Below the pieces are notes generated by a model. The model was not told where the DNA came from and did not search any database. It saw only the letters and a program-made list of their open reading frames with translations. From NCBI RefSeq assembly GCF_000186265.1, contig NC_014934.1, positions 806,001 through 870,000 on the forward strand: a stretch of DNA of 64,000 nucleotides. The letters run 5' to 3'. Every line of letters starts with the position of its first letter. The first letter of the stretch is position 1. Both the position numbers and the translations under genes were made by a program. The DNA is from Cellulophaga algicola DSM 14237 (GTDB taxonomy: Bacteria > Bacteroidota > Bacteroidia > Flavobacteriales > Flavobacteriaceae). Below, piece by piece: positions 9,041 to 47,423 of the stretch.

Positions 9041-9067
9041 AATCAAACTGAAATTAAATTGTATGAA

Positions 9068-30191: not shown

Positions 30192-31466
30192 ATGAAAATA
30201 GAAAAGCTACACGAACTTTTTTTAAAGTTCTCAACGATAAGTACAGATACCCGAAAGGTTACTAAAGACTGCATCTTCTTTGCGCTAAAGGGCGAAAATT
30301 TTGATGGCAACACCTACGCTAAAAAAGCATTAGAAAGTGGCGCTAAATACGCTGTAATAGATGACGAAAGGTTTGCGGATAGTGATGCCACTATTTTGGT
30401 TCCAGATGTTTTAACCTGCTTACAACAATTAGCTAATTTTCATCGAAATTTCTACAAAACAAAGGTTATTGCACTTACTGGAAGCAATGGAAAAACAACC
30501 ACCAAAGAACTTATAAATTCCGTTTTATGTACCACGTATAAAACCATTGCCACAGTCGGGAATTTAAATAACCACATAGGAGTACCTTTAACACTACTCG
30601 CTATAAAAGAAGATACCGAAATTGCGATTATTGAAATGGGTGCTAACCATCAAAAAGAAATTGAATTTCTTTGCAACATAGCTGAACCTGATTTTGGCTA
30701 TATCACAAATTTCGGAAAAGCACATTTAGAAGGTTTTGGCAGCTTTGAAGGTGTTATCAAAGGAAAAAGTGAACTTTACGATTACCTTCAAAAAGATGAG
30801 AAACCTATTTTCTTTAATGCTGATGATGAATTGCAAGCAAACAAATTATCAAACTACATTAATAAATTTGGTTTTAGCGAAACAGATTCCCATTACTATA
30901 ACATACAACTAAAGGAAGCGGATCCTTTTGTGCAGATCATTTTTGAAAATCAAGAAATCGTTTCAAATTTGATTGGCGCTTATAATTTTATTAATTGTTG
31001 TGCCGCTATAATCATGGGTAAGTATTTTAACGTTTCCATTGATCAAATTAAAAACGGAATAGAACGCTACATCCCTTCTAATAACCGTTCACAAGTACTA
31101 ACACAAAATACGAATGAAATAATTTTAGATGCTTACAATGCCAACCCAAGTAGCATGAAAGCGGCTTTGGATAATTTTAGCAAATTAAAGACCACTAAGA
31201 AGATTGTTTTTTTAGGTGATATGTTTGAATTAGGAAGTACCGCACCAGAAGAACATCAACATATTGCGGAATTAACTTCAGCATTAAACTTCACCGAAGC
31301 TTTTTTAATTGGTGAAAATTTTGATGTAACCACTTCAGATTTAAAAACATTCAAGTCTTTCAATGAACTCGCTGTATTTTTAAAAACAAACACATTTAAA
31401 GATGCCTCTATATTAATTAAAGGATCAAGAGGAATGGCTTTAGAAAGAGTACTAGATTTACTATAA
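30192..31466 (+). CDS. murF: UDP-N-acetylmuramoyl-tripeptide-D-alanyl-D-alanine ligase
   Basis: A 424-residue cytoplasmic Mur ligase that adds D-Ala-D-Ala to the muramyl tripeptide, the last soluble step of peptidoglycan precursor synthesis. The ATP loop is ALTGSNGKTTTKELI near residue 105, and the MurF signatures NLNNHIGVPLTLL and ILDAYNANPSSMKAAL are present. I take the ATG at 30192. An earlier in-frame ATG at 30156 lies inside the gldJ terminator and would add a stretch encoded by the hairpin, so it is rejected. It ends at a long hairpin shared with glpD. Confidence 0.95.
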   Translation: MKIEKLHELFLKFSTISTDTRKVTKDCIFFALKGENFDGNTYAKKALESGAKYAVIDDERFADSDATILVPDVLTCLQQLANFHRNFYKTKVIALTGSNGKTTTKELINSVLCTTYKTIATVGNLNNHIGVPLTLLAIKEDTEIAIIEMGANHQKEIEFLCNIAEPDFGYITNFGKAHLEGFGSFEGVIKGKSELYDYLQKDEKPIFFNADDELQANKLSNYINKFGFSETDSHYYNIQLKEADPFVQIIFENQEIVSNLIGAYNFINCCAAIIMGKYFNVSIDQIKNGIERYIPSNNRSQVLTQNTNEIILDAYNANPSSMKAALDNFSKLKTTKKIVFLGDMFELGSTAPEEHQHIAELTSALNFTEAFLIGENFDVTTSDLKTFKSFNELAVFLKTNTFKDASILIKGSRGMALERVLDLL

Positions 31467-31517
31467 ATAACAAGATGAATACCTCAACGAGGCATTCATC
31501 TTGTTATCTTTTTTTAA
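31467..31517. terminator. Bidirectional terminator between murF and glpD
   Basis: 14-bp perfect outer arms (ATAACAAGATGAAT and ATTCATCTTGTTAT) plus a 4-bp inner stem and a 3-nt loop. On the + strand it ends in TCTTTTTTT. It closes murF and probably also the glycoside cluster arriving from the other side. Confidence 0.88.
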
Positions 31518-31524: not shown

Positions 31525-33174
31525 TTAGAATTCTGAATGTGATTTTATCAAAGCATCTAATTCTGAATTATAGGCTGATAAGGTTTCTTCACTTAAAGCA
31601 AAAGTCTCTTTAAAAACTGCAAAAACTTTTTCTCTATACGCTTTTACACTCTCTATATTAAAATACAGTCTTCCTGTTCTCCGTATAAAAAAATCTAATG
31701 GCGTAACCACCATTTCATGGTGCATACAAAATTCTAACTCAGCCATGATTAAATTCTCCTTAGGATTAGCCCCTGTACTGGAAGCATAAATTTGTAATAT
31801 AGCTTCTGTTTGTTTCCCATATGTGGTAACCAAATACCATGCTTCATGTGCCTCAAAATTATCCTTTTCTAATATGTCATTAATTTTAGTGATGTATTTC
31901 TTAACTTCTTTGTATTTTTTCCATGGCCCACCAGTTAGCGGAATTTTATCCGTAAAAACATCCTTGAACCTTGCACTTGTCTGTTTTTCTAATTTTTTGT
32001 GAACTTTATCTACTACTCGTTCTGCCATTTTACGATACCCCGTAAGCTTACCTCCTGCCATACTCAATAATCCAGAATCAGAATTAAATATTTCATCTTT
32101 CCTAGATAGCTCTGAAGGCGACTTCCCTTCTTCATGTATTAAAGGCCTTAAACCTGCCCAAGAAGACACAATATCTTTACGCTCTAAATGAACACTAGGA
32201 AACATGTTATTAATAGCATCTAACAAATAATCTGCATCTTCTACAGTAGCCACAACATCTTCCTTAGAATGTTTGTAATTGGTATCCGTTGTACCTGCAT
32301 AAGTTACATTTCCTCTAGGAATAGCAAACATCATGCGACCATCTGGAATATCAAAGTAAACGGATTGTTTTAAAGGTAGTTTCGCTTTTTCAAAAACCAA
32401 ATGCACTCCTTTGGTCAGATGTAATTGCTTTCCTTCTTTAGAATGATTGATCGTCCTCAACTCATCTACCCACGGACCCGCAGCATTAATTACGTATTTA
32501 GAATGTATCTGATAAGATTCTCCACTCACTGCATCGGTAACCGTGACTCCCGAAATTTGGTCGCCATCATACAAAAAGTCAGTTACTTTCGTATAATTAA
32601 TAGCTGTTGCATTGTAATTTAATGCCGTTTTAATGTTCTCTAAAGTCAAACGTGCATCATCCGTTCTATATTCCGCATAATACCCAGACCCTTTCAAGAT
32701 GCCTTCTGGCAATAATGGCTCTAATGCTAAGGTTTCTTCCTTATTCATCATTTTACGCTTATCATCACCTTCTACATCAGCAAGAATATCATAAACTTTT
32801 AAGCCAATTGAAGTCATCCATTCTCCATAAGAACCGTCTTCAATAAGCGGTAATAGCATTTTTTCAGGAATGACTAAATGTGGTGCTAATTTATGCACTA
32901 TAGCACGTTCTGTACCTACTTCCTTTACAAGCATTAGCTCAAATTGCTTTAAGTACCGAAGACCTCCATGAATTAATTTAGAAGACTTGCTACTGGTTCC
33001 TGAAGCAAAATCGCCTTTTTCTATTAAAGCAACTTTCATTCCTCTTGAGGATGCATCTAATAAAATACCTGCTCCTGTAATTCCTCCACCAATAACTACT
33101 AAATCAAACGTATTAGCCTTTAATTCTTCTGTTATCTTATCTCTTTTTAAATAGGTAAAATTTTCTTTTTTCAT
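31525..33174 (-). CDS. glpD: FAD-dependent glycerol-3-phosphate dehydrogenase
   Basis: A 549-residue flavoenzyme that oxidises glycerol 3-phosphate to dihydroxyacetone phosphate and passes electrons to the quinone pool at the inner membrane. It begins with a dinucleotide-binding site DLVVIGGGITGAGILLDA, has the GlpD motifs GTSSKSSKLIHGGLRYL and GTTDTNYKHS, and SMAGGKLTGYRKMAERV near residue 380. It is the last gene of the minus-strand cluster, 25 bases after glpK, and probably handles the glycerol released by the GH36 enzyme. The cluster ends at a strong hairpin. Confidence 0.94.
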   Translation of the reverse strand: MKKENFTYLKRDKITEELKANTFDLVVIGGGITGAGILLDASSRGMKVALIEKGDFASGTSSKSSKLIHGGLRYLKQFELMLVKEVGTERAIVHKLAPHLVIPEKMLLPLIEDGSYGEWMTSIGLKVYDILADVEGDDKRKMMNKEETLALEPLLPEGILKGSGYYAEYRTDDARLTLENIKTALNYNATAINYTKVTDFLYDGDQISGVTVTDAVSGESYQIHSKYVINAAGPWVDELRTINHSKEGKQLHLTKGVHLVFEKAKLPLKQSVYFDIPDGRMMFAIPRGNVTYAGTTDTNYKHSKEDVVATVEDADYLLDAINNMFPSVHLERKDIVSSWAGLRPLIHEEGKSPSELSRKDEIFNSDSGLLSMAGGKLTGYRKMAERVVDKVHKKLEKQTSARFKDVFTDKIPLTGGPWKKYKEVKKYITKINDILEKDNFEAHEAWYLVTTYGKQTEAILQIYASSTGANPKENLIMAELEFCMHHEMVVTPLDFFIRRTGRLYFNIESVKAYREKVFAVFKETFALSEETLSAYNSELDALIKSHSEF

Positions 33175-33199
33175 AACTTTATTTCCCCAACTAAATTAA

Positions 33200-34687
33200 T
33201 TAATTGCACTCCCAATTCATAGTACGTTTTACCGCTTTTTTCCAACCAGCATACATTTTATTTCTGAGTTGCTTAGAAACATTTGGTTCAAATATTTTAT
33301 CGACAGTTCTACTCTTCAGAATATCATCTTCAGACCACATACCCACGGTAATCCCTGCCATATATGCTGCGCCTAATGCCGTAGATTCTATAGATTTTGG
33401 TCTGATTACATTTTTATTTAATATATCTGCCTGGAACTGCATTAAGTAATTATTTGCTGCTGCACCTCCATCTACTTTTAAGCATTTAAGCTTTATACCA
33501 GAATCGCTTTGCATGGCCTGTAAAATATCTTTTACTTGATACCCTAAACTATCTAAGGTAGCCTTTGCGATATGTGCTTTTCCTGTATCTCTCGTAAGTC
33601 CAAAAATTGCACCCCGTGCATACATGTCCCAATATGGGGCCCCTAAACCTGCAAAAGCAGGAACTACATAAACAGGATTCTCTACATCTAGACTCAAAGC
33701 CAACTTCTCAGATTCACATGCAGATTCTATAACATTTAACTCATCTCTTAACCACTGTACTGCCGCGCCTGCAATAAAGATACTACCTTCTAAAGCGTAC
33801 CGCACTTTACCATTTACGCCCCACGCTATTGTGGTGATCAGTCCGTTTTTTGAAAACTGGGGTTTTTTCCCTGTATTCATTAGTAAGAAACAACCTGTTC
33901 CATAGGTATTTTTAGCGTCTCCCTTTTTTAAACATGCCTGACCGAATAATGCCGCTTGTTGATCCCCAAGTACACTTGCTATTGGGATTTTAACTCCATT
34001 GAGTTCATACATTCCAAATACACTTGACGAAGGAAAAACTTTTGGCAGCATACTTGCCGGAATTTCTAATTCTGAAAGTAGCTTTTTATCCCATTCTAAG
34101 GTATTAATATTGAATAACAAACTTCGTGAAGCGTTGCTATAATCTGTAACATGGACATTCTCTTTTGTTAAATTCCAAATTAACCAGGAATCTATAGTTC
34201 CAAACCGCAACACTCCTTTATCTGCCTTTTCCTGAGCCCCTTCTATGTTATCAAGAATCCATTTTATTTTAGTTCCTGAAAAATAAGAATCTATTACTAG
34301 TCCCGTATTTTTTCTAACATAATCTGTAAGTCCGCGTTTTTTTAATTTTTCACAAAATGGTGCTGTTCTCTTATCTTGCCAAACTATAGCATTATAAATA
34401 GGTTTTCCGGTTTCTGAATCCCAAACCACCGTGGTTTCTCGTTGATTTGTTATACCTATTGCTACAATTTGGTCTGGTGTTACCTTAGTATTCTTGATTA
34501 GTTTTTCAAAAACGCGTAGTTGACTTTGTAATATTACAGCAGGGTCATGCTCTACCCAACCTGATTGCGGATAGATCTGTTCAAACTCCTCTTGCTCCAT
34601 GCCTATAATTTTTCCTTGATGATCAATCAAAAGAGCGCGAGAACTTGTTGTTCCTTGATCTAAAGAGACGATAAATGAAGTGTTCAT
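33200..34687 (-). CDS. glpK: Glycerol kinase
   Basis: A 495-residue FGGY-family kinase that makes glycerol 3-phosphate from glycerol and ATP. Signatures are clear: [13 protein letters not shown] at the N-terminus, [13 protein letters not shown] and IVWQDKRT, the glycerol-binding R/E/W residues, and the C-terminal ATP segment [20 protein letters not shown]. It is 28 bases after the symporter gene and 25 bases before glpD. No glycerol facilitator (glpF) lies in the cluster, which suggests that its glycerol comes from inside the cell. Confidence 0.95.
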
Positions 34688-34715
34688 TCTAGAAAATTTA
34701 TATTAGTTATCTCAA

Positions 34716-36371
34716 TTAAAAAATTAAATAGGTACTCAGTACGAGTATTGTTATCAATATACCTGCTACTATGGCATACTTCCAAGGAGTTATATTTAAA
34801 TCGTCTGTTTGCATAGGAACATAATCAGTATCACGAGGATACAATTTACCTATGACTAGCATTATAATGATATTCAACACAAAAAGTATCGCCATCACGT
34901 GTAAGAAGTGCGGATAAGCTTCTGCTTGAATGACATTTAATGCATGAAGATCTGTAATACCATTCTGCTGCGCTTCTAAAAGTGCTTTTTCAATAAATCG
35001 AGGTTTTATTATAAATTGACTAATTGAATAAAGTACTACTCCAGAAATAACGCCAACTTTTGCTGCAATCGCTGGTACTCTTTTCGTAAAGAACCCTATA
35101 ACAATTACTGTTAATATCGGAATACTATAACAACCATTGGCTTCTTGCAACCATGCGAATAATCCATTAGGCGCATTTGCTATTAGTGGTGCAACACACA
35201 TACCCAAAATTCCAAGAACTAGACCAAATATTTTACCTGCTTGAACCACTTGTTTTTCAGAAGCATTTTTTTTGAAATACTGCTTATATAAATCAAAACC
35301 AAAAAGTGTTGCACTACTATTTAATAAGCTATTAAATGAACTTAGTACTGCCCCAAACAATACTGCTGCAAAAAAGCCAGTGAATACTGTTGGCAATACT
35401 GTTTTTACCAATTGCGGATATGCTTGGTCAGGGTTTTCTAAATCGCCATTAAAAACATGCCACGCTATTATACCTGGAAGTACTACAATTATTGGAATTA
35501 AAAATTTAGCAAGCGCAGCCAAAATCATTCCTTTTTGACCTTCTTTTAAATTTTTAGCACCAAATACACGTTGCAATATTGCCTGATTAGTACCCCAATA
35601 GAACATCTGAACCAACATCATCCCCGTAAAAACCGTTCCAAAAGGAATGGAAGCATCAACCCCGCCTTTAACATTAAATTTCTCTGGATTTTCTTTCCAT
35701 AAAATATCTAATCCGTCTAATACATTACCATCTCCTATCAACATCAATCCGAATACAGGAACTAAAAGTCCCCCAATGATAAGACCTATAGCATTTATTA
35801 AATCTGAAACAACCACTGCCTTTAGTCCTCCAAAAACTGCATAAATAATACCTATTATTCCAATACTCCATACACATACCCAAATGGTTGCATTCTGTGA
35901 AATTCCTAAAATTTGCGGAATATCAAACATAGTACTAAAAGCTAAAGAACCAGAATACAAGACTGATGGCAATACAACCAAAACATATCCAGATAAAAAT
36001 AAAATTGTTAATATGGCTTTAGTTTGATGATCGAATCTATTTTCAACAAATTGAGGAATCGTAGTTATTCCCCCTTTCATATATTTTGGAAGTAAGAATA
36101 TAGCGGTAATAATCATGGCAATTGCGGCTAGTGTTTCCCAAGCCATGACCAAAACACCTTCTGTAAATGCTTGCCCATTTAAACCCACAATCTGTTCTGC
36201 AGACAAATTAGTTAGCAAAATAGAACCTGCAATAGTAACTGCTCCTAAGCTCCTGCCTGCCAAAAAATAACCATCGGCAGATTTTTCATCTGTTTTCCTA
36301 GTAGCATACCATGCTATAATTGCGACTAAAAGCGTAAAACCGACAAAAGAAATGATTGCTAAAAAATCCAT
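34716..36371 (-). CDS. SSS-family sodium/solute symporter (SGLT-like)
   Basis: A 551-residue inner-membrane transporter of the solute:sodium symporter (SLC5) family with about 13-14 helices. It has the N-terminal FVGFTLLVAIIAWYATRKTDEKSADGYFLAGRSLG, NLSAEQIVGLNGQAF and the substrate-path region FWGTNQAILQRVFGAKNLKEGQKG. The closest well-known homologues include the Vibrio galactose/Na+ symporter and sugar or inositol carriers, so a sugar or small glycoside is a sensible cargo. It sits between the alpha-galactosidase and glycerol kinase genes (12- and 28-base gaps). Within this cluster it is the only visible inner-membrane permease, so it probably imports the substrate delivered by SusC/SusD. 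Confidence 0.9.
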   Translation of the reverse strand: MDFLAIISFVGFTLLVAIIAWYATRKTDEKSADGYFLAGRSLGAVTIAGSILLTNLSAEQIVGLNGQAFTEGVLVMAWETLAAIAMIITAIFLLPKYMKGGITTIPQFVENRFDHQTKAILTILFLSGYVLVVLPSVLYSGSLAFSTMFDIPQILGISQNATIWVCVWSIGIIGIIYAVFGGLKAVVVSDLINAIGLIIGGLLVPVFGLMLIGDGNVLDGLDILWKENPEKFNVKGGVDASIPFGTVFTGMMLVQMFYWGTNQAILQRVFGAKNLKEGQKGMILAALAKFLIPIIVVLPGIIAWHVFNGDLENPDQAYPQLVKTVLPTVFTGFFAAVLFGAVLSSFNSLLNSSATLFGFDLYKQYFKKNASEKQVVQAGKIFGLVLGILGMCVAPLIANAPNGLFAWLQEANGCYSIPILTVIVIGFFTKRVPAIAAKVGVISGVVLYSISQFIIKPRFIEKALLEAQQNGITDLHALNVIQAEAYPHFLHVMAILFVLNIIIMLVIGKLYPRDTDYVPMQTDDLNITPWKYAIVAGILITILVLSTYLIF

Positions 36372-36383
36372 ATAGTTTGGTTG

Positions 36384-38153
36384 TTATTTTTTGATTAACT
36401 GAATAATACCACAAGAAGGTACGCTTATTTCAACAATTACAGCATTTATAGTTAATGCTGCTTTAGAGACTTCATTGCCCATACAATCAAAAACGATATA
36501 TTCATACATACCTAAGTTTGTAGTTGCTTTCAAGGCAATATTTGTACTCATTTTTCCATTATGCAAATGAATGTGCTCATAAGAATTTGAAATAGTTGTA
36601 ATTAAATTATCATAAACTCCTATAATGATACTTTTATCTTTAGTGACTTTTTGAGTAGTGTAATTACCTAAAGGATTAGAGGGGGTAAACTCTCCATTCA
36701 TTAACACATCGGCATTTCTATTCCAGTATGCAGTATAAAACGCAATCATTTTTCTATGTGCAACAGATACTTTAGAAATAAACATTGAAAGTTGCGGTAC
36801 TCCAAAAAGAGTATTTATCAATTGCAAAGCTGCAACCTCAACAGGTTCTTTATCATGCCAAGTAACCATATCTGAATGTACCGCAGTGTTCCCTGCTAAC
36901 AGTCTAATATCTGCAATACGGATTCTATTCATGGTAGCATCTCCTGGACAATCAAAAGCGCGAAGCATGTTCCCAAATTTACGCATCGCAGGACCAACAT
37001 ATTTTTGTCTAAATTCTATGAAAATATCTGGATTTATCGCTTGTAAATTGTGCATAACATCGGTCATCAATTTATCTACAGCATCATTAATAGATGCAAA
37101 ATCTCGACCATTACCTAAACCTAGAGGTGTACTTTCATACAAACGAAAATCATCAATAAAATCTAACTTCAATCCATCAAGATTCCACTCTTTAACTGCA
37201 TTAGCATAAATGGTAATTAAATACTCCCTTACTTCTGGGTATCTTGGATCAAATACAGGAGCCCACCTATGATCTTCGGTCAAAAATTTACCTTTAAATC
37301 TTTTGAAAGCTTCTGATTTTGGACCACAAAAAGGAACGGAATACCACAAAGCTGCTTTCAGCCCTGTTGCCTGAATTTTTGCAATATATTCTGCCATATT
37401 AGGAATACGGTCTGGTCTCCAATCTCCGGTATAATCATACCCTCTATTCGTATCGAAAGTCTGCCAACCATCATCAATAATTATTGCCTTATATCCCAAA
37501 TCACTAGCTAACTTGCATTCTTCTAAAAGTAATTCTAAATCTAAATTTTGATGAAATTGATACCACGTAGAATATAGTGGCATTTTTGCAATTGCCGGTA
37601 CCGATGCTGGCTTTAGATTTTCAAAAGTTTCCCACCAAGCTGAAACCTGCTTTATAGCCTCTGAAAAAAGTGTATTTCTGGTATCTATTCTAACCTGAGC
37701 TTTAAAACTTTCTAAGGCTTGTTCTTCTTCTGAAAAGAAGGTTATATGGCAATAAAAATAATTATCCTCTTCTCTAATACGCGCATTCATTTGCAACTTA
37801 TTGATTGCATTTGAACAGGCAAAAGTGATGATATTTTCATCCTTATGACCAAATAAGCTAATTACTGGAGCATCAATTGAGATTCTAGATTCCATATGAT
37901 CTAACTCCCAATCTGCCTGTATCCTCTTAGCAAAATCTGTAGTAGGTTTCCAAACCCCTTTTACATTTATTCCAGGAATTTTCCATTTGAGCGTAATTGG
38001 TTTTGGAAAATGTTTTTCACCACACTTTACCTCAAACTCATAAATATCTAATCCTTTTTCTGAACTAATTTTCTGGACGGAAGAAGACACCATTGCATCA
38101 TCTCCAATTATTTCCATAGCTTCTATAGCAGCTTCAATACTATCAACATTCAT
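36384..38153 (-). CDS. Cytoplasmic GH36-type alpha-galactosidase
   Basis: A 589-residue glycoside hydrolase without a signal peptide. Residues 1-180 form a beta-sandwich-like N-terminal part and 190-480 a TIM barrel with GH36/melibiase features: YSTWYQFHQ, IIIDDGWQ (the DDGW motif also found in plant raffinose-synthase/SIP-type GH36 proteins), the likely nucleophile Asp331 in LKLDF, and a probable acid/base Asp401 in RAFDCPGD. A small C-terminal beta domain follows. It starts 10 bases after the FG-GAP lipoprotein gene ends and is followed by the SSS transporter gene. GH36 enzymes cleave terminal alpha-galactosides. Given its cytoplasmic place and glycerol-using neighbours, a galactosyl-glycerol such as floridoside is an attractive substrate, but that is inferred. 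Confidence 0.82.
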   Translation of the reverse strand: MNVDSIEAAIEAMEIIGDDAMVSSSVQKISSEKGLDIYEFEVKCGEKHFPKPITLKWKIPGINVKGVWKPTTDFAKRIQADWELDHMESRISIDAPVISLFGHKDENIITFACSNAINKLQMNARIREEDNYFYCHITFFSEEEQALESFKAQVRIDTRNTLFSEAIKQVSAWWETFENLKPASVPAIAKMPLYSTWYQFHQNLDLELLLEECKLASDLGYKAIIIDDGWQTFDTNRGYDYTGDWRPDRIPNMAEYIAKIQATGLKAALWYSVPFCGPKSEAFKRFKGKFLTEDHRWAPVFDPRYPEVREYLITIYANAVKEWNLDGLKLDFIDDFRLYESTPLGLGNGRDFASINDAVDKLMTDVMHNLQAINPDIFIEFRQKYVGPAMRKFGNMLRAFDCPGDATMNRIRIADIRLLAGNTAVHSDMVTWHDKEPVEVAALQLINTLFGVPQLSMFISKVSVAHRKMIAFYTAYWNRNADVLMNGEFTPSNPLGNYTTQKVTKDKSIIIGVYDNLITTISNSYEHIHLHNGKMSTNIALKATTNLGMYEYIVFDCMGNEVSKAALTINAVIVEISVPSCGIIQLIKK

Positions 38154-38163
38154 TTTATATACT

Positions 38164-41100
38164 TTATCTATTTTGTGAAAACACTTTCATTTCATTATTA
38201 TATTGGGTAGCTATAATAAAAGCTTTCCCTTTTATATCTATCAATTTTATTACATGATTAGATTGCTCTGGGACATAAAACCCTGAATCCTTACTTGGTA
38301 CTACTTCAAAAAAATCATCCTTACCTTTTAAAAAGATTCCTGTTAGCGCATCTTGATTACCAAAATGTGTTTCTGCTGTTTTATCATTACCAACCAGAAG
38401 CATATCTAATTTGCCATCTTCATCAAAATCATCAACTAAAATATCTTTTATAGGAGCTACTTGACATGTAGCAGGAAGTGGTCTTAATTTAAATTTACCA
38501 TTACCTAAATTTTCTACATAACTACTTTCAAAAATTGATGCCTGTACAGTTTCTGAAGCCAGCTTTTTTATCTGAAGTAACTCTTGAAAACTTGTACTCG
38601 CAAAAGATTCATACGTTGAGTAGTCATTTTTCAAGACGGATAATTGCTTCATTATATCATCTCTTGTTTGCAATGGCAACAGAACCTCTCCCTTATCCGT
38701 AGTAAAATATTTTGCCAGAATAGGATCTAAACTACCATTATGATCAAAATCTTTAGTATACAAATAGACAGGCTTAGCTTGTGTTGGCCTCATAAAACTA
38801 TTTGTACCTTGATTACCTATAACAAAATCAATATCGCCATCCTTATCAAAATCTGCAGCCTTTATTTTGTTCCACCAACCAGAGGTATTCATTGGCTGGT
38901 CATTTTCATCAAGCCAAGTAATTTTCATGGGCTGTAGAGTTCCTCTATTATTTTTAAAAACAGTAATTTCCATGAACTCCCCTACTACAATTAAATCTTG
39001 CCAGGTATCATTATCAATATCTTGCCAAATTGCGCTGGTTACCATTCCTAAGTGAGAAAATATTGTTTTAAACGCCCCCTTAAAAACACCACTTTCATTA
39101 ATTAAAAAAGAACTGATTGGTACCGACGGATATTCTTTTGGTGTAAGTCTAGCCCCTATAAAAACATCTACATCACCATCTTTATCAAAATCTGTTGCCG
39201 CTATTGCCCCAGTACTTTGTATAATTTCGGGGAGCTTACCTTCTGCTTTCTCAAAAAATCCTTTTCCATTATTCAAGTATAATCTATCTTTATAACTACG
39301 AGATTCTTTGGTATGTCTATTACCTCCACTACCCACATATAAATCTAAATCGCCATCTGCATCGGCATCAATAAAAACTGCCTGACTATTATCAAAATTG
39401 CTTTCTAAATATTGAGCTACTTTATACACGCCGGCTTCATCCTGGAACCAAATGCTGCTAGGCACACCATTAGTTCCTCCAACAAACAACTCATCACCCA
39501 TGTGATTATCAATATTAGCTGCAACCACACAAGGACTTTTTGGTGTATACTGCTTTACCATTAAATGCTGTACTAAGTATTCATTTAACGGAAGAACTTT
39601 TTGATTATATTTTAGTAAGCTTGTATCCATACTAAATAAAAAATCTCTTTTCTTATTAAAAACGGAATGCTCAGAAGCGTCTTCCTGCTTTAAGGACAAT
39701 ACCTGATTAGCTGCAATTTTATAATGCATACTATTTTTACCGTTTGGCCACTGAATTTTTAGAGAATCTACAACAGTATCTTTAATTCCGAAATGCACTA
39801 TGGGTTCTACAGATGATAAATACCCACGAATAACAGATTGGTAATGACTTTGTGTAGTACCATTTTGATAAAGGGTAACTTTTGCACCAATTGCCTTTGA
39901 ATTATGTGTGCCTCCTTTAAGGAGTATTCTAAGGTAATTGTTATTGTTTTTTTGTCTAGAACGATTTTCTAAAATAAATGCTTTTTCATTATTATTATTG
40001 ACAATCAAATCTAAATCTCCATCATTATCTAGATCTGCATATGCAGCGCCATTGGAGAAAGATTCTTTGTTTTGAATCCATGTATTAGATACATCATTGA
40101 AATTTGTATCATCATCTTGTTCGTAAATAAAATTGGGTAAATGAATCCCAGGTAGTTTAGCAACAGCCTCTTTTAATCTTTTACTTTTTGCTTCTGGTGT
40201 ACCAAAAATTCCGTTTTGATTGGAGTAGTTTATAAAATCTAAATCTGTAATATCTTTTACATACCCATTTGTAATGTAAATATCTTTATCTCCATCATTA
40301 TCAAAATCTACCATTAACGGCGCCCAGCTCCAATCTGTGCTAGCAATTCCTTTCTGAAAACCAAGTTCACTAGATTTGAGGGGTTTATCTGCTAAAAAAC
40401 CATTACTTAATTGTAGGGTATTATGCATATACTGTGGCGTATACTCATTTCTTTGAGATAGAAGAAATTTATCATAATTCATGCTTCCCAGCATCATTTT
40501 TTGTCTCTTATACGCTTTTGGCAACATATCTAAAACCAAAATATCTGGTAAAGTATCATTGTTAATATCTGCAACATCAACCCCCATAGCATTGTAGGTT
40601 TCATGAGAAAGATAGGCCTTGCTAGATTCTATAAAAGTTGGATTTTCATTCGTATGAGATGCCCTATTAATGTATAAAATATCATCCGTAATAAAATCAT
40701 TGGAAACATAAATATCAGGCAGATTATCTCCATTAAAATCATTGATTGCAACGCCCAACCCAAAGCCTTTACTATTCATATTTAAACGATCTGAAACATT
40801 TATATAAACCGGATGATTAACTCCTTGTATTGTTTCATTTTTTAATAGATAGTCGGACAAGTGATTAGGTAAGTACCTTTTAGGCATTGGTGTATTTTTA
40901 TCATGCGTGGTATTCCCATTGTGCACGATATACACATCCAAATCCCCATCTAAATCATAATCAAAAAATACTGCTTGTTGTGCATAGTTTGCATCATCTA
41001 AACCATATGCCTTTGCTTCTTCTATGAATTTAGGTACTCCATTTTTAGTTAATCCTTGATTCACAAACAATAAATTCTGACAATTATCAGTACAATTTGC

Positions 41101-41499
41101 ACCTCCTACACTTAAATAAATATCATCCCAACCGTCTGAATTTATATCTACTATAGAAACCCCAGTAACCCAAGTATTAGTAAAAAAATTAGCCTTTTCA
41201 GAAATATCTGTAAAGGTTAATTTTCCATTATTTAAATAGATTTTTGAAGAAACTTGATTTCCTGTAAATACAATATCTTGAAGACCGTCATTATTAAAAT
41301 CTCCTATTCCGACACCTCCACCATTGTAACAGTATTGAAAATCGATTATATTGATTTCATTATTTTCTGTGATTGTATTTTCAAAATTTATGTTTGATGT
41401 ATTTTCTGAAACATGTACAAATAAAAAATCCTCGTTATTCGTAACGCAACCTGTAAATAGTAACGATAGCAAAATAATAAGAGTAGAATATTTAAACAT
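38164..41499 (-). CDS. FG-GAP/VCBS-repeat and ASPIC/UnbV lipoprotein (CRTAC1-like)
   Basis: A 1111-residue lipoprotein (signal ending FTGC, Cys18). Two FG-GAP beta-propeller regions with Ca-type loops such as DFNNDGLQD, DYDLDGDLD and DFDNDGDKD lie before and after an ASPIC/UnbV domain at about residues 520-590. The ATG ending at 41499 is chosen because it starts the lipoprotein signal; the in-frame TTG at 41529 is rejected. Related proteins occur in many marine SusCD loci and are thought to be on the cell surface. They may bind or present the substrate; no catalytic site is visible. It is 89 bases after susD, with a hairpin between, and 10 bases before the GH36 gene. Confidence 0.85.
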   Translation of the reverse strand: MFKYSTLIILLSLLFTGCVTNNEDFLFVHVSENTSNINFENTITENNEINIIDFQYCYNGGGVGIGDFNNDGLQDIVFTGNQVSSKIYLNNGKLTFTDISEKANFFTNTWVTGVSIVDINSDGWDDIYLSVGGANCTDNCQNLLFVNQGLTKNGVPKFIEEAKAYGLDDANYAQQAVFFDYDLDGDLDVYIVHNGNTTHDKNTPMPKRYLPNHLSDYLLKNETIQGVNHPVYINVSDRLNMNSKGFGLGVAINDFNGDNLPDIYVSNDFITDDILYINRASHTNENPTFIESSKAYLSHETYNAMGVDVADINNDTLPDILVLDMLPKAYKRQKMMLGSMNYDKFLLSQRNEYTPQYMHNTLQLSNGFLADKPLKSSELGFQKGIASTDWSWAPLMVDFDNDGDKDIYITNGYVKDITDLDFINYSNQNGIFGTPEAKSKRLKEAVAKLPGIHLPNFIYEQDDDTNFNDVSNTWIQNKESFSNGAAYADLDNDGDLDLIVNNNNEKAFILENRSRQKNNNNYLRILLKGGTHNSKAIGAKVTLYQNGTTQSHYQSVIRGYLSSVEPIVHFGIKDTVVDSLKIQWPNGKNSMHYKIAANQVLSLKQEDASEHSVFNKKRDFLFSMDTSLLKYNQKVLPLNEYLVQHLMVKQYTPKSPCVVAANIDNHMGDELFVGGTNGVPSSIWFQDEAGVYKVAQYLESNFDNSQAVFIDADADGDLDLYVGSGGNRHTKESRSYKDRLYLNNGKGFFEKAEGKLPEIIQSTGAIAATDFDKDGDVDVFIGARLTPKEYPSVPISSFLINESGVFKGAFKTIFSHLGMVTSAIWQDIDNDTWQDLIVVGEFMEITVFKNNRGTLQPMKITWLDENDQPMNTSGWWNKIKAADFDKDGDIDFVIGNQGTNSFMRPTQAKPVYLYTKDFDHNGSLDPILAKYFTTDKGEVLLPLQTRDDIMKQLSVLKNDYSTYESFASTSFQELLQIKKLASETVQASIFESSYVENLGNGKFKLRPLPATCQVAPIKDILVDDFDEDGKLDMLLVGNDKTAETHFGNQDALTGIFLKGKDDFFEVVPSKDSGFYVPEQSNHVIKLIDIKGKAFIIATQYNNEMKVFSQNR

Positions 41500-41524
41500 G
41501 ATACAGCTAATATTTTTAATTAAA

Positions 41525-41552
41525 GCCAAGTATTTCTCTCAAAACACTTGGC
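41525..41552 (-). terminator. Hairpin between susD and the FG-GAP gene, possible attenuator
   Basis: 7-bp arms GCCAAGT and ACTTGGC with a 14-nt loop; on the minus strand it is followed by TTTAATT. It could lower read-through from susCD into the downstream genes or stabilise the susCD message. Confidence 0.45.
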
Positions 41553-41588
41553 CTAAAACTCAACTTCAATTAAACTTAACAACAATTC

Positions 41589-43178
41589 TTAATACCCCGG
41601 ATTTTGCTTTAAATTAGGGTTTGCATCAATCTCTGAGCCTGGAATCCAAACTAGTTCATGTTTATTTTCTTGAAAAATTCCTCCACTTAACGATTTTGGA
41701 TTTGCACCATGTAATGAAGTTGCTCCCATATAATCATCTGCAAGGCCCCAACGCACAAGATCAAAAAATCTATGCCCCTCACCTGCCAATTCCATGGCAC
41801 GCTCATCTATTATTGCTTGACGCATTGCAGTTTGATCTAAACTTAAATCTGAAACTGTAGAAAGTTCTGCTCTTAAGCGAACCTGATCTACAAATGGTCC
41901 TGCAAGGTCTGGTTGATTGTTTTCATTCAGTGCTTCGGCAAGCATTAACAAAACATCTGCATACCTAATGATTCTCCAGTTATTACCTACATTAGTTCCT
42001 AGAAGATCTACTTGTTCTCTTGTTCCTAATTCCATTCCGGTATACTTTCTACTGAAAATTGGCTCTACACCAGCATCAATTGCAATCGTAACCGCATCAG
42101 AGGGTTCACCTTCCGGCTCAGGCGTTTCATCTCCCATATCCGTGACAAAATCTACACCACCATAACCTGTGGCTCCTGCATAATTATACGTTAGTGTTTC
42201 ATTTCTTCTTATAACGTCATTATTATCATTGAACAAATCTTTTAACCAAGGGTTAATAACATGCCCTTTATCTGGTGACTTAACAGGAGGAGCATAATCA
42301 ATATGATAATTCCCCATGGTGCCTGTTCCAGGAATATCTGTTCCCCAAATAAAAGTGGTCTGTCCTAAAAATTGTAGCTCAAAAACAGATTCTTGGTTAT
42401 TTTCATTTGTACTTGAAAAATTATCACCATAAAATGATCCGGGAAGCAAACTGTATTTACCAACTAAACTCTGCAATGCAGTGATCGCTAATGGATACTC
42501 TTTCATGTATAAATAACTCTTCCCTTTTAATGCTGTTGCTGCACCTGCAGTCGGTCTACCTAAATCATCACCACTCCAACTATCTGGCAACATTCCTTCA
42601 GCCATTTCTAAATCGGCAATTATTTGTGCCCAAACTGCAGACGGTTCTGCTTGGTCTACTAATAAATTATCTAAATCTGGTAATGTTGTAATTAACGGTA
42701 CACTACCGTATAAATTTAGTAAATACCAATAATCAAATGCTCTTAAAAAATAAGCCTGACCAATAAGACTATTTCTTATTTCTTCATCTGCTATATCTTC
42801 TTCATTAATATTTATGATGATATTGTTACATCTAGCGATTGATTTATACAATTGCTGAAACGGCTCTAATGCCCAACGATCTCCGGGATTTCCTTGTAAG
42901 GTAGACATCGCCGTATTACTCCCAAACGGAAATATATTAAACTCATCAGAACGCAATAATGCTCCTGTGTGCACTATTCTTCCCCAGAAAAAAGTATCTG
43001 TAATTGGGTGAAATGCTCCATTTACTGCGGCCTTTACCTGAGCTACAGAAGTACCAAAATTTTCTGTTGAAGTAGCATTATTATTTTCTTGATCCAAAAC
43101 ATCATCTGAACACGAACCAAATAAAACAATACTGGATAGCGCTAGTGCTAAATTTCTTGATTTAAAAATATTTTTCAT
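41589..43178 (-). CDS. SusD/RagB-family nutrient-binding outer membrane lipoprotein
   Basis: A 529-residue surface lipoprotein with a lipobox ending at Cys23 (VLFGSC). It has the SusD pattern: TPR-like helices (IRNSLIGQAYFLRAFDYWYLLNLYGSVPLI), KGKSYLYMKEYPLAITALQSLV, and the C-terminal signature RAMELAGEGHRFFDLVRWG. SusD-like proteins cap the SusC transporter and capture the glycan or glycoside. It lies 15 bases after susC. The binding specificity cannot be read from the sequence. Confidence 0.93.
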   Translation of the reverse strand: MKNIFKSRNLALALSSIVLFGSCSDDVLDQENNNATSTENFGTSVAQVKAAVNGAFHPITDTFFWGRIVHTGALLRSDEFNIFPFGSNTAMSTLQGNPGDRWALEPFQQLYKSIARCNNIIININEEDIADEEIRNSLIGQAYFLRAFDYWYLLNLYGSVPLITTLPDLDNLLVDQAEPSAVWAQIIADLEMAEGMLPDSWSGDDLGRPTAGAATALKGKSYLYMKEYPLAITALQSLVGKYSLLPGSFYGDNFSSTNENNQESVFELQFLGQTTFIWGTDIPGTGTMGNYHIDYAPPVKSPDKGHVINPWLKDLFNDNNDVIRRNETLTYNYAGATGYGGVDFVTDMGDETPEPEGEPSDAVTIAIDAGVEPIFSRKYTGMELGTREQVDLLGTNVGNNWRIIRYADVLLMLAEALNENNQPDLAGPFVDQVRLRAELSTVSDLSLDQTAMRQAIIDERAMELAGEGHRFFDLVRWGLADDYMGATSLHGANPKSLSGGIFQENKHELVWIPGSEIDANPNLKQNPGY

Positions 43179-43193
43179 TGTCTAATTTTTTAA

Positions 43194-46100
43194 TTAAAAT
43201 GTAGCTTGTACACCAAACATTATTGTTCTTGCATTCGGATATGCTCTTGCATCTAATCCTCTTCCTAATAACGGGTTAACATTATTTCTTAATCCCGGAA
43301 CACCACTATCTCTATTTGCTCTACCTCCATTTGTAGAAGAAACATCTGGATCATACCCACTGTAACTAGTAAGTACAAATACATTTTGAACATTAAGAGA
43401 TAAACGAACATCTTTCACCCAGTCTAAACCAGCAATACCGTCTCTAAAATTATATCCAACATCTAAATTTTTCAATCTGAAATAAGAACCGTCTTCTACA
43501 AAGAAAGAAGATGGAGCCTTATTACCAGCAGCATCTGATATAGAAGCTCTAGGAATATTAGTATCTGTATTTGAAGGCGTCCAAGAGTTTAAAACTTCAG
43601 TAAGTTTACCTCCATCTTGCCATAAAATACTATAATATCTACCCAAATTATAAATTTCATTTCCTTGTACCCCGTTAAAACTTAATCCAAAATCGAAATT
43701 CTTGTATTCAGCGTTAAAGTTTAAACCATAGGTAAAATCTGGTGTAGGATTACCTATGTTCGTAATATCATCTGCAGTTATAGCGCCGTCTCCATTTACA
43801 TCAACTCTTACAAAATCTCCAGTTGCTGGATTTACTTTATCTTCTACTTTATACCCATAAAATGCACCAATGGACTCATTGGAAGTTGTTCTATTTACAA
43901 TACGTTGATCTTCATCGATTGCTGGACCAAGAATTGGATTAGGCAAATCTCCTGCTTCACTTTTTAAATTGAAAGAAAAGTTGGTTCCTACTGTATACGT
44001 AAAATCACCATCATTTTTGCGATAGGTTAAATCCCACTCTAAACCATTATTGACAAGTGTTCCTGCATTTCTAGTAACAGGTATACTTACGCCACTTGTG
44101 GAAGGCACATTAATCCCAACCAATACGTCTTCTATATTCTTAGAATAGTAGTCCATTGTAAAATTCATCTTATTATTCATAAAAGCTAAATCGATGCCAA
44201 TGTCAAACGTTTTTGATGTTTCCCATACTAAGGAAGGATCTGCCAAAGTGGTTTGCGACAAGCCTGTTGCTAAACCACCCCCGAATGAAGTATTAGAATT
44301 GGTTTGAAATGTAGCTTTCGTTGGATAAAATGTGTCAGGATATGAACCCAAAACACCATAAGAAGCACGTAATTTAAAATAATTGATAGCTTCTGATTTC
44401 CAAAAATCTTCGTCGCTAATATTCCATCCCGCAGAAAAAGAAGGGAAATACCCAACTCTATTCTCTGGAGCAAAACGAGAAGAAGCATCTCTTCTTATGG
44501 TAGCAGATACTAAATACTTACCATCATAACCATAATTTACACGTCCAAAATAGGATTGTAAAGCAGCCGCATTATTATCCCCTAACAATACCAATTGCTC
44601 GGTTGATGGCAATGCTCCAACATTTTGAATTACATTTGATGGAGTACCTTGCCCATAAACACCATTGCCTTTTTGTGTTTCTTTAAAAAGCGTATACCCT
44701 GCTACAGCGCCAAATTTGTGTACACCAAATTTTTTATCATAAGCTAAGGTAGGTTCTACCAAAATATTAACATCTTCTTGTCTGTAATCTGTTAAATCAT
44801 TTTCTGTATTTACGTTTAAAACAGCATCTACATTACTCATGAAGTAAGTAGGCGTAAACTGAAAACTATTTCTGTTGGTATAATCTATACCAAAATTTAG
44901 TGATGCTGTTAACCCTTCTATGATTTCATAATCTAACTTTGCATTACCAAAAATAGTTCTCGTAGTTTCTAAATTATTTTCCAAGCTTGCTAAACCATAC
45001 TGGTTGACACCACCTGGCCCATGAATTACTGATGAAGGAGCTTCAAAACCACCATCATTAGCAGTATTCGTAAAGGCCAAAGTTGGTACAGAAGCACCGT
45101 CCCAACCATACCAATTGTTCTCCTGTAGTTTACCTTCTGCAATACCTAAAGACTGAGTAAGTGTAAATTTCCCGAAATCTGACCTACTATTAAATCTCAT
45201 ATTAATTCTCTTGAAACCAGAACCTACCAAAATACCATCTTGATTAAAGTAATTTCCTGAAGCAAAATATGAAGTATGCTCTCCTCCACCAGAAATAGAA
45301 AAGCCTAAATCTTCAACAATTCCTGAACTTAAAGATTCATCTTGCCAATCTGTATTAACGCCATTATAAGTTACTCTTGTAGCCTCTCCATCGTTAGCAA
45401 AGCGTTGATTTAAATAATCTGTATATTGTTGACCATTGATATAATCTAACTTCTTACTAGGCGTATCAAAACCAATTCTTGAATTAATTTTAACCTCAAC
45501 AGCCCTATTCTTCCTTCCGTGATTTGTTTTTATTAAAACAACACCATTCGCTGCTCTTGAACCATAAATAGAAGCTGCTGCTGCATCTTTAAGAATAGAG
45601 ATATCTTCTATGTCTTGCGGATTTACATAATCCATATTATCAACAAATAATCCATCAACAATAAAAAGAGGATCTGCATTACTTAAAGAGTTAACCCCTC
45701 TGATAAAAACATTTGCAGAACCTCCAGGCTGACCACCAAAACTCTCTACCTGTATTCCCGAAAGTTTTCCTTGCAATGCTGTTGTAGGGTTACTTGCAAC
45801 CACATTAACAATGGCTTCCTTTTTAATTGTAGCAACTGCACTGGTAAGTTCTCGCTTATTTGAAGTTCCGTATCCTACAATAACCACTTCGCCTAATGCC
45901 TGAGCGTCTGGCTCTAGAGTAATATTTACAGTAGATCTACCCGCTATAGGGATTGCTTGAGTTGCATACCCAATATAGCTAAAAACTAATACACTATTTT
46001 CAGTCAAATCTGAAAACGTATAATTACCGTCAAAATCTGTTGTAATTCCGTTTGTTGTTCCTTTTACCACAATATTTACACCAGGTAAAGGGCCATCTAC

Positions 46101-46202
46101 ATCGGAAACAATTCCTGAGACCTTTCCGGTTTGCGCAAAAGCAATACTACTCAGTAATACTAAAGCCAAACCAATAAATTGTTTGAGTGTTTTTCTGATC
46201 AT
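43194..46202 (-). CDS. SusC/RagA-family TonB-linked outer membrane transporter
   Basis: A 1002-residue TonB-dependent transporter (signal peptide cut after IAFAQ). An N-terminal carboxypeptidase-regulatory-like domain (about 25-100, VSGIVSDVDGPLPGVNIVVKGT) precedes the plug (ALQGKLSGIQVESFGGQPGG, VFIRGVNSLSNADPLFIVDG) and a large barrel ending in MFGVQATF. The ATG ending at 46202 is preferred over a TTG at 46211, as it opens directly on the signal peptide. It pairs with the SusD gene 15 bases downstream and would bring the substrate into the periplasm using TonB/ExbBD energy. Confidence 0.94.
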   Translation of the reverse strand: MIRKTLKQFIGLALVLLSSIAFAQTGKVSGIVSDVDGPLPGVNIVVKGTTNGITTDFDGNYTFSDLTENSVLVFSYIGYATQAIPIAGRSTVNITLEPDAQALGEVVIVGYGTSNKRELTSAVATIKKEAIVNVVASNPTTALQGKLSGIQVESFGGQPGGSANVFIRGVNSLSNADPLFIVDGLFVDNMDYVNPQDIEDISILKDAAAASIYGSRAANGVVLIKTNHGRKNRAVEVKINSRIGFDTPSKKLDYINGQQYTDYLNQRFANDGEATRVTYNGVNTDWQDESLSSGIVEDLGFSISGGGEHTSYFASGNYFNQDGILVGSGFKRINMRFNSRSDFGKFTLTQSLGIAEGKLQENNWYGWDGASVPTLAFTNTANDGGFEAPSSVIHGPGGVNQYGLASLENNLETTRTIFGNAKLDYEIIEGLTASLNFGIDYTNRNSFQFTPTYFMSNVDAVLNVNTENDLTDYRQEDVNILVEPTLAYDKKFGVHKFGAVAGYTLFKETQKGNGVYGQGTPSNVIQNVGALPSTEQLVLLGDNNAAALQSYFGRVNYGYDGKYLVSATIRRDASSRFAPENRVGYFPSFSAGWNISDEDFWKSEAINYFKLRASYGVLGSYPDTFYPTKATFQTNSNTSFGGGLATGLSQTTLADPSLVWETSKTFDIGIDLAFMNNKMNFTMDYYSKNIEDVLVGINVPSTSGVSIPVTRNAGTLVNNGLEWDLTYRKNDGDFTYTVGTNFSFNLKSEAGDLPNPILGPAIDEDQRIVNRTTSNESIGAFYGYKVEDKVNPATGDFVRVDVNGDGAITADDITNIGNPTPDFTYGLNFNAEYKNFDFGLSFNGVQGNEIYNLGRYYSILWQDGGKLTEVLNSWTPSNTDTNIPRASISDAAGNKAPSSFFVEDGSYFRLKNLDVGYNFRDGIAGLDWVKDVRLSLNVQNVFVLTSYSGYDPDVSSTNGGRANRDSGVPGLRNNVNPLLGRGLDARAYPNARTIMFGVQATF

Positions 46203-46262
46203 AAGAATCAATGTTAATTAATAGTTTTTTTAAGTTAGTTAATTAAAACATAAGCCATTATA

Positions 46263-46289
46263 ATAGTCTATGATAGTCTATGCTACTAT
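46263..46289. promoter_or_regulatory. Candidate operator: 10-bp tandem repeat at the susC start site
   Basis: ATAGTCTATG occurs twice in tandem (46263-46272, 46273-46282). The second copy also forms the inverted pair ATAGT-N7-ACTAT (46273-46289). It lies just downstream of the -7 box, over the expected transcription start, a good place for the neighbouring GntR-type regulator to block or tune susC. Confidence 0.45.
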
Positions 46290-46290
46290 G

Positions 46291-46320
46291 CAAATATAAT
46301 TATATTTTAATAATATCAAA
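46291..46320 (-). promoter_or_regulatory. Canonical Bacteroidota promoter of the susC operon
   Basis: On the minus strand TTTG (46320-46317), an 18-base spacer and TATATTTG (46298-46291) fit TTTG-N17-20-TAnnTTTG. The predicted start is about 80 bases before the susC ATG. Confidence 0.8.
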
Positions 46321-46374
46321 ATATTATGTAGTTAATTTGAGAATATCACATATTAGTACGCCTATTTATATGCA

Positions 46375-46389
46375 TACTATATAATAGTA
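46375..46389. promoter_or_regulatory. Inverted repeat TACTAT-ATA-ATAGTA, candidate operator
   Basis: Perfect 6-bp inverted repeat with a 3-base centre, about 55 bases upstream of the susC -33 box and just past the regulator gene's stop. Its half-site recurs in the regulator's own promoter. Confidence 0.4.
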
Positions 46390-46409
46390 AAAATAACCTC
46401 TAAGTAAGT

Positions 46410-47423
46410 TTATAGGGAGTTTCTTTTGATTAGATCCGAAGGCATAATCAATTGTGTAATTTTTTTATTTTTAATATGGCTCGCCGCTTTTCTTGCCATT
46501 TCTTTAAAATCCGTAGAAATAGTAGTGATCCCTCCGAAAATAATTTCTTTAACCACATGATCATTGTGAGACAAGATTCCAATTTCTTTGCCTACTTTAA
46601 ACTCACTGTTTCTAATATCCTTTAAAACATCCCAGAGGTAGGTGTCACTTACAAAAAAATAGACGTTTCCTCTCTGAACAGCTCCAGGTTTATATTTTTC
46701 CAAAATACTATTGCTTATAGAATAGTCTGAACAAAATCTATTAAAAGCATTTAATATGCCAACAGGATAATCTGCATCCTCCTTGAAGAAAAGTATAAAT
46801 TTTTTGTATTTGGTAATTTTCGGAAGCAGTTCTACCAATTTGGAATAAGTAGATTCCTCAAACTCTTGCGCTATATAGGAATATGATTTATTCAGCGGTA
46901 TGAACCTATCTATAATTAATAACTTCTCAGGAGGAATTACCTCCATAAGAGGCCTTAAATTTAAATCTGGAATAGGAGCAACGACGTACATACCATATTT
47001 GCCTTGTATATTTTGGAATACACTACTAAATATAGCACTATTATTATGATGAAAAAAAACATCAATTTGATATTTTTTACCAAGTTCTTTTCTAAAGGTA
47101 TTATAAAATTCTTCTTGAAAACGTTGAAAAGAAAACAAGATGAGTGCCACCCTCAACACTACTTTAGTTTCTTCACTTACAACAAAATACCCTTTGAGTT
47201 TTTTTGATTCTATGAGTCCACGATCTTTGAGCTCTTCATAAGCCTTAACGATAGTTTTTCTTGCAAACCCTAATTCAGAGACCATTGTATTAATAGAAGG
47301 CAATTGATCTCCTATTTTTAGAATACCAGATTGTATAGCATCTAATACTCCATGAACTATTTGCTCATGTTTTGATAATAAATTTACCTCTTGAAGGTTT
47401 TTTATTTTATCTATTAACGTCAT
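46410..47423 (-). CDS. GntR-type regulator with LacI/periplasmic-binding-like sensor domain
   Basis: A 337-residue regulator. Residues about 10-80 are a GntR winged helix (ILKIGDQLPSINTMVSELGFARKTIVKAYEELKDRGLIESKKLKGYFV). The remainder (about 90-325) has the layout of a LacI/periplasmic-binding-protein sensor domain (KYGMYVVAPIPDLNLRPLMEVIPPEKLLIIDR, then EIGILSHNDHVVKEIIFGGITTISTDFKEMARKAA), the same domain pair as AraR. Such proteins bind a sugar or glycoside inside the cell. It reads toward susC, 207 bases away, and most likely controls the galactoside cluster. Matching inverted half-sites flank it on both sides. Confidence 0.88.
   Translation of the reverse strand: MTLIDKIKNLQEVNLLSKHEQIVHGVLDAIQSGILKIGDQLPSINTMVSELGFARKTIVKAYEELKDRGLIESKKLKGYFVVSEETKVVLRVALILFSFQRFQEEFYNTFRKELGKKYQIDVFFHHNNSAIFSSVFQNIQGKYGMYVVAPIPDLNLRPLMEVIPPEKLLIIDRFIPLNKSYSYIAQEFEESTYSKLVELLPKITKYKKFILFFKEDADYPVGILNAFNRFCSDYSISNSILEKYKPGAVQRGNVYFFVSDTYLWDVLKDIRNSEFKVGKEIGILSHNDHVVKEIIFGGITTISTDFKEMARKAASHIKNKKITQLIMPSDLIKRNSL

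Follow-up and report, generated by a model that had tools for sequence, protein, structure and literature searches.

An eight-gene operon of Cellulophaga algicola DSM 14237 probably constitutes a GntR-controlled system for the use of an alpha-galactosyl-glycerol, the best candidate being red-algal floridoside (2-O-alpha-D-galactosyl-glycerol) or isofloridoside. The operon lies in a stretch of 64,000 nucleotides, hereafter the window (C1:806001-870000 of a 4.89-Mb single-contig genome), where its genes run in one direction on the minus strand across positions 31525-47423 and encode, in order, a GntR-type regulator, a SusC-type receptor, a SusD-type lipoprotein, an FG-GAP/ASPIC lipoprotein, a glycoside hydrolase (GH) resembling family GH36, a sodium:solute symporter of the SSS family, glycerol kinase (GlpK), and glycerol-3-phosphate dehydrogenase (GlpD), with identities and positions as originally predicted. 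The original prediction had further proposed that an intact galactosyl-glycerol is taken up, split inside the cell, and its glycerol used directly, and our comparative tests support this notion: GlpKs of two clades occur at such hydrolase loci, a putative operator recurs upstream of remote glpK genes, Leloir genes accompany some loci, and other loci lack a recognisable SusC/SusD pair, while the genome itself has one GlpK above the curated cut-off, no GlpF, and a galK-galT pair.

In the proposed pathway, the intact heteroside would cross the outer membrane via SusC/SusD, perhaps aided by the FG-GAP/ASPIC lipoprotein, and would be brought into the cytoplasm by the SSS sodium symporter, where the GH36-like hydrolase would release galactose and glycerol from it. 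The glycerol would then be converted by GlpK and GlpD to dihydroxyacetone phosphate, and galactose would pass to GalK and GalT, which are encoded elsewhere in the genome. When the substrate is absent, the GntR protein would bind an operator immediately downstream of the -7 box and thereby repress the operon. We infer the substrate identity, the cleavage reaction, the direction of transport, the repression, and the inducer from sequence comparisons, and such comparisons would not tell floridoside, isofloridoside, and other galactosyl-glycerols apart. More tentatively, and with appreciably less confidence than for the operon itself, we suggest a dedicated floridoside regulon of alga-associated Flavobacteriaceae that has an operator of its own, a previously undescribed branch of clan GH-D acting on alpha-galactosyl-glycerol, and a GlpK-GlpD fusion as the sole glycerol kinase of many Aquimarina. 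Glycerol genes would have joined it repeatedly and independently, either through operon capture or through operator gain at a distance.

Glycerol genes at and away from the hydrolase locus

Within the genome, the GlpK of the operon (33200-34687) was the only protein above the TIGR01311 cut-off (717.6 bits; cut-off 590.35), the other match reaching 135 bits. The FAD-dependent GlpD (31525-33174) carried both the DAO (PF01266, 188 bits) and DAO_C (PF16901, 71.6 bits) domains above their cut-offs and stayed below the NCBIfam equivalog cut-offs (PRK12266, 339 against 360; type 1 oxidase, 491 against 840). Glycerol operons of the GlpF-GlpK-GlpD type are known, and the present operon has GlpK and GlpD in common with them, whereas here both genes lie within a glycosidase operon and no MIP/GlpF gene occurs in the whole genome, extending the earlier remark that glpF is absent from the locus.

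To place the operon among its relatives, we scanned named genomes with short peptide patterns, a non-exhaustive search that yielded 50 hydrolase loci from Maribacter, Zobellia, Cellulophaga, Polaribacter, Aquimarina, Dokdonia, many uncultured Flavobacteriaceae, and a few more distant metagenome-assembled genomes. A search of related Bacteroidota for the same gene order, as the original prediction had proposed, found GlpK and GlpD beside the hydrolase in 18 of these 50 loci (L003, L005, L006, L020, L023-L025, L027, L028, L030-L033, L037, L043-L045, and L051); in 11 of the 18 the two were fused as one open reading frame (ORF) of 1055-1091 aa, and L004 carried GlpD at the hydrolase locus without GlpK. 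In a second sample, with one genome for each of 199 genera of the family, a close form of the hydrolase (914-1074 bits) was present in 14 genera, and GlpK exceeded its cut-off in all 14 versus 75 of the 185 others (Fisher p 7e-6), lying within ~4 kb of the hydrolase in 7 of the 14.

The ancestry of these kinases points the same way. In a quick tree of 80 GlpKs, for which the software flagged a meeting of long branches, the window GlpK formed a clade of five with four other locus GlpKs (SH-aLRT 97), neighbouring a group of GlpKs from outside hydrolase loci (join support 80), which often have an ORF of ~780-800 aa upstream, a penicillin-binding protein in the sole case checked (L143). All 20 fused proteins and the 8 remaining locus GlpKs made up a separate, long-branched clade of 28 with support 100. 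The two clades at hydrolase loci would be best explained by two separate recruitments of glpK.

A putative operator also connected glycerol kinase to the locus where the two are far apart. The sequence GTAGCATAGACTATCATAG (46268-46286, minus strand), between promoter and SusC, has no other exact copy in the genome, and GTAGCATAGNNTATCATAG or a near form was common to 46 regions downstream of a GntR gene, usually right after the TAnnTTTG-like box that precedes the operator in many relatives; at least three of these 46 regions are one locus taken twice, and some carry forms with 2-3 mismatches. We searched stretches of at most 300 bases ahead of glpK genes, both remote and within hydrolase loci, counting sites with at most 4 mismatches. 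The operator was found 41-163 bases upstream of the remote, sole glpK in 19 of 29 hydrolase-bearing genomes (G005, G007-G013, G015, G018, G023, G026, G031, G032, G036, G037, G046, G047, and G064) versus 0 of 30 control genera without the hydrolase, in which the best site had at least 6 mismatches (Fisher p 1.4e-8, with congeners counted that are not independent). The set of 29 excluded G078 (second hydrolase subfamily only; best site 5 mismatches), the additional housekeeping glpK of G001 (6 mismatches) and G040 (5), both of which also have a locus glpK, L151-L154 (fused GlpK, no hydrolase; 6-8 mismatches), and the glpK of G390 and of the genomes of L008, L034, and L038. None of 26 GlpKs within hydrolase loci had an operator of its own (best 5 mismatches), which one would expect were the whole operon governed by the SusC operator. 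In Zobellia-like genomes the glpK operator stood at -41 to -56, always facing the same way, and in Aquimarina it faced the opposite way at -125 to -163, ahead of the fused gene, a difference suggesting that the coupling at a distance probably arose more than once.

Upon scanning 80 chosen genomes in full with the operator pattern, we obtained 99 sites, compared to 11 for the reversed pattern, and the operator occurred somewhere in 55 of 56 genomes with the hydrolase (G078 with the second subfamily only; none in G096) versus 2 of 24 without it. It was not always at the hydrolase locus: the site found in G001 lay at L219, a second SusC/SusD set, and the one at the L003 hydrolase locus had 3 mismatches. 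G140, which lacks the hydrolase, had one 1-mismatch site and no recognised partner gene. Weaker sites (L220, L221, L223-L227, and L229-L232) had no nearby partner gene from our reference set of locus genes, and L222, examined for such a site, contained a second hydrolase/SSS pair. A 2-mismatch site in the C. algicola genome falls within a 106-aa reading frame and was ascribed to chance. Regulation of algal-carbohydrate genes by a GntR-family protein would not be new to Flavobacteriaceae, as Dudek et al. are said to have described in 2020 a Zobellia GntR repressor that acts on alginate catabolism.

Further arrangements of the same genes were observed in relatives. The GlpK-GlpD fusion of ~1060 aa (L030:11984-15163 and similar frames) is the only glycerol kinase above the curated cut-off in many Aquimarina genomes. 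In L153 (G194, 2136-9990), the fusion accompanies an SSS symporter 68% identical to that of the window, without a hydrolase of the window kind, and its neighbours are a Gfo/Idh/MocA oxidoreductase, a xylose-isomerase-like TIM barrel, and a 3-keto-disaccharide hydrolase, an arrangement that might serve to degrade a glycosyl-glycerol by a 3-keto route. L154 (G190, 5734-11889) lines up an aldose 1-epimerase, the fusion, and HAD-IIA-like and galE-like genes, again without the hydrolase. A second GH-SSS-GlpK-GlpD set (L161) is found in G003, with no operator at up to 2 mismatches within the stretch examined. Finally, L217, L219, and L228 comprise a second SusC/SusD set accompanied by a PAP2 protein and by proteins of the FG-GAP/ASPIC type, with an operator and a regulator like those of the hydrolase locus; we take the PAP2 protein to resemble vanadium haloperoxidase.

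The hydrolase and the probable galactose half

The hydrolase (36384-38153, minus strand; 589 aa) was assigned from Pfam profiles, matches to solved structures, and conserved residues. It had been predicted to be a signal-less GH36-type alpha-galactosidase. Judged by eye, its N terminus indeed has no hydrophobic stretch and no signal peptide, and the family assignment stood in part. Its best sequence matches among solved structures were GH36-type and GH31 alpha-galactosidases, and its family profile matched 3mi6 (E 1.2e-11) and 4fnr (E 1.7e-8). Against this, the resemblance is distant: the protein did not reach the curated GH36 family score (Pfam Melibiase, 23.9 bits; cut-off 27) and had as its only NCBIfam match, far below the cut-off, a beta-L-arabinopyranosidase. 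On the related Raffinose_syn profile it scored 21.9 bits, above the cut-off of 20.

Conserved residues supported the alpha-galactosidase resemblance. In GH36 alpha-galactosidases, DDGW contains the galactose-binding Asp pair and the Asp of K-x-D is the nucleophile. Nine residues (W197, D227, D228, D244, K329, D331, R382, R398, and D401) were fully conserved in 26 aligned sequences; among them, D227/D228 (DDGW) and K329-L-D331 pair with the DDGW and KWD of 3mi6, 4fnr, and 8k1a, making D331 the putative nucleophile by alignment. The invariant D401 (RAxDCP) is a candidate for the acid/base Asp, which in GH36 enzymes belongs to the later part of the barrel, but the alignments to solved enzymes end upstream of it. 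A profile-profile alignment with two GH36-type relatives (A2) ended before the catalytic residues, with the K-x-D region wrongly paired. As the alignments stop after K-x-D, we call the hydrolase GH36-like, probably of clan GH-D and only a distant relative of GH36, a family call based on sequence profiles. In the sample of 199 genera a second hydrolase subfamily gave six matches (725-790 bits), one of which shares its genome with the close form, and at phylum level a hydrolase match at E 1e-50 was present in 7 of 395 genomes. In some relatives an acetyltransferase-like gene (maltose/galactoside O-acetyltransferase) lies between hydrolase and symporter, and in L028 (10725-12959; Aquimarina sp. 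RZ0) a GH36-type protein with DDGW and KWD stands between the hydrolase and the GlpK-GlpD fusion.

Genes for galactose use were found both in the genome and at relatives' loci. C. algicola carries adjacent galK and galT at C1:546 kb, away from the locus, which answers the earlier suggestion to look for a galactose pathway elsewhere in the genome. Among relatives, the gene orders were GntR-SusC-SusD-GH-SSS-galK-galT in L131 (its galT named from its resemblance to the L134 gene and from the GalT search of the genus sample), GntR-SusC-SusD-GH-galK-galT in L134, and GH-SSS-glpD-galK in L004, and galK with a galT-like gene was nearby in L029. A galE-like gene lay downstream in 16 of the 50 loci, 9 of which also had glpK-glpD, and its identity was confirmed by profile in L030. 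By BLAST only, genes similar to galT, galE, and galK occurred beside the hydrolase in L183, from another family of the phylum, and galK- and galT-like genes beside a second-subfamily hydrolase in L185. GalT was present in 11 of the 14 hydrolase genera versus 69 of the 185 others (p 0.003). The occurrence of galK, galT, and galE in or beside some relatives' loci suggests that the sugar half of the substrate is probably galactose.

Proposed red-algal substrate and competing readings

A porphyranase-type domain, PF18206, would mark red-algal feeding. The genome of C. algicola contains it, and it was present in 6 of the 14 hydrolase genera versus 8 of the 185 others (p 8e-5). PMC12323150 gives floridoside as a common red-algal osmolyte and store, and floridoside should therefore be good food for seaweed bacteria. 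A literature search of open-access titles and abstract beginnings, which left subscription papers and preprints outside its scope, returned no description of a bacterial floridoside system among the matches listed, and neither "floridoside" nor "GH36" appears in the main texts of PMC9296495, PMC5698469, and PMC5613140, which deal with Zobellia on macroalgae, the carrageenan regulon, and Zobellia transcriptomes.

The closest known systems were compared through the accessible parts of the respective papers. Floridoside turnover in Neoporphyra haitanensis (PMC8703398) involves GALE, glycerol kinase (GK), glycerol-3-phosphate dehydrogenase (GPDH), alpha-galactosidase (GLA), and GALT, like the bacterial loci, but takes place within the alga itself, where TPS/TPP-type enzymes carry out the synthesis, and the accessible part names no such import system or regulator. 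The beta-mannan locus of Bacteroides ovatus with the GH36 enzyme BoGal36A (PMC5094572) is likewise a Bacteroidota utilisation locus with an alpha-galactosidase, although its target is galactomannan and our hydrolase is only distantly GH36-like. Bacteroides loci for raffinose-family oligosaccharides (PMC11501099) also serve small oligosaccharides, but no glycerol part is named in the accessible text.

The substrate was first proposed to be small and soluble. Three loci had no recognisable SusC/SusD, namely L019 and L022 (GntR, GH, and SSS only) and L126 (GntR and GH only), within the stretches examined and relative to the reference set of locus genes, a comparison that a very different transporter could escape; this fits a small substrate and suggests that a SusC/SusD pair similar to that of the window may not be essential. 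The pair in the window is, on the other hand, unusual for a compound as small as galactosyl-glycerol.

Besides this point, several observations weigh against the galactosyl-glycerol reading. The GlpK-GlpD pair is missing at 32 of the 50 loci, some of which are on short contigs, and the second hydrolase subfamily shows no glycerol link. Ten of the 29 remote glpK genes have no operator (G002, G016, G019, G034, G035, G072, G096, G132, G148, and G166), and the operator counts include non-independent congeners. G121 has no hydrolase match and yet possesses a SusC/SusD/ASPIC set together with the regulator and an exact operator, and its glpK has an operator 74 bases away. GalT is missing in 3 of the 14 hydrolase genera (G047, G064, and G096), which would therefore need another galactose route. 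Finally, the hydrolase stands at a large distance from the GH36 enzymes that have been characterised, and alignment does not fix its acid/base residue.

We consider it unlikely that the substrate is instead a plastid galactolipid head group, digalactosyl-glycerol from digalactosyldiacylglycerol (DGDG). This molecule has a terminal alpha-galactose, also yields galactose and glycerol, and as a somewhat larger compound would suit SusC/SusD; removal of the alpha-galactose would, however, leave beta-galactosyl-glycerol, which needs a beta-galactosidase, and neither that enzyme nor a lipase is among the identified locus genes, many flanking ORFs being without identification. Quite unlikely, too, is a larger glycan carrying alpha-galactosyl-glycerol (teichoic-acid-like, or a glycerol-substituted galactan) that enzymes encoded elsewhere would trim outside the cell, leaving the last step to the locus. 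SusC/SusD and surface lipoproteins usually serve oligosaccharides, and some relatives have the second SusC/SusD/ASPIC set with an operator of the same type, but the window operon has no extracellular hydrolase and three loci do without recognisable SusC/SusD. The divergence of the hydrolase, its sub-threshold beta-L-arabinopyranosidase match, and the GH31 enzymes among its structure matches would permit another glycosyl-glycerol, such as glucosylglycerol, or the release of another sugar handled by the clan, such as beta-L-arabinopyranose; with alpha-galactosidases as the best profile matches and galK, galT, and galE at relatives' loci, we hold this to be very unlikely. Chance adjacency of glycerol genes to an alpha-galactoside operon, with two halves serving separate substrates, would account for the many loci without the GlpK-GlpD pair but deserves almost no credence given the two GlpK clades at hydrolase loci and the operator-bearing remote glpK genes. 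A plain glycerol operon was rejected, given the absence of GlpF and the operator-based links between glpK and the hydrolase locus.

The galactosyl-glycerol reading is directly testable, as relatives link the same functions in several separate ways, floridoside is on sale (a supplier is named in PMC12323150), and cultured Zobellia carry the locus. Together, locus and operator provide marker genes that can be counted in metagenomes.

Regulatory region, transport genes, and setting

The GntR-type regulator (46410-47423, minus strand; 337 aa) combines a helix-turn-helix domain (PF00392, 42.8 bits; cut-off 27) with a Peripla_BP_3-like sensor domain (PF13377, 22.9 bits, below its cut-off of 26.5), and an orthologue was present at 33 of the 50 relatives' loci. 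The 198-base gap between the regulator gene and SusC contains a promoter-like stretch and the operator. Bacteroidota promoters typically combine a TTTTG-type box at -33 with TAnnTTTG at -7, and we located a possible -33 box in a stretch with TTTTG (46309-46321, minus strand) and a possible -7 box, TATATTTG (46291-46298, minus strand). Scans for sigma-70 promoters were uninformative (61 sites versus 72.7 in shuffles).

All transport and lipoprotein genes are on the minus strand. The SusC-type TonB-dependent receptor (43194-46211; TIGR04056, 798.8 bits, cut-off 368) is listed with a TTG start, and from the sequence an in-frame ATG at 46202 is the probable start. The SusD-type lipoprotein (41589-43178; PF07980, 132.6 bits) is adjacent to it, as is usual in a polysaccharide utilization locus (PUL). 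The FG-GAP/ASPIC-UnbV lipoprotein (38164-41529; PF13517, PF07593, and N terminus) is likewise listed with a TTG start; the in-frame ATG at 41499 is probable and is followed by a lipobox-like LFTGC. The SSS symporter (34716-36371) matched NF007790 (750.1 bits; cut-off 401) and PF00474 (180 bits; cut-off 22.8). Among the genes of the window operon we found no secreted depolymerase or other extracellular hydrolase, consistent with what had been noted before, and a PUL for a polymer was rejected as the operon lacks a depolymerase.

Intergenic gaps measure 15 bases for SusC-SusD, 59 for SusD-ASPIC, 10 for ASPIC-GH, 12 for GH-SSS, 28 for SSS-GlpK, and 25 for GlpK-GlpD, so the spacing of 10-28 bases first given for the last five genes is exact. 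Upstream, the operon is flanked by tRNA-Val and a Mur-ligase-type gene (folC-like by reading), and downstream by a convergent murF; a 21-bp hairpin between glpD and murF (31465-31509; fold -28.9 kcal/mol) is a probable terminator. The type IX secretion/gliding genes PorV and GldJ adjoin the locus (window 26888-30125).

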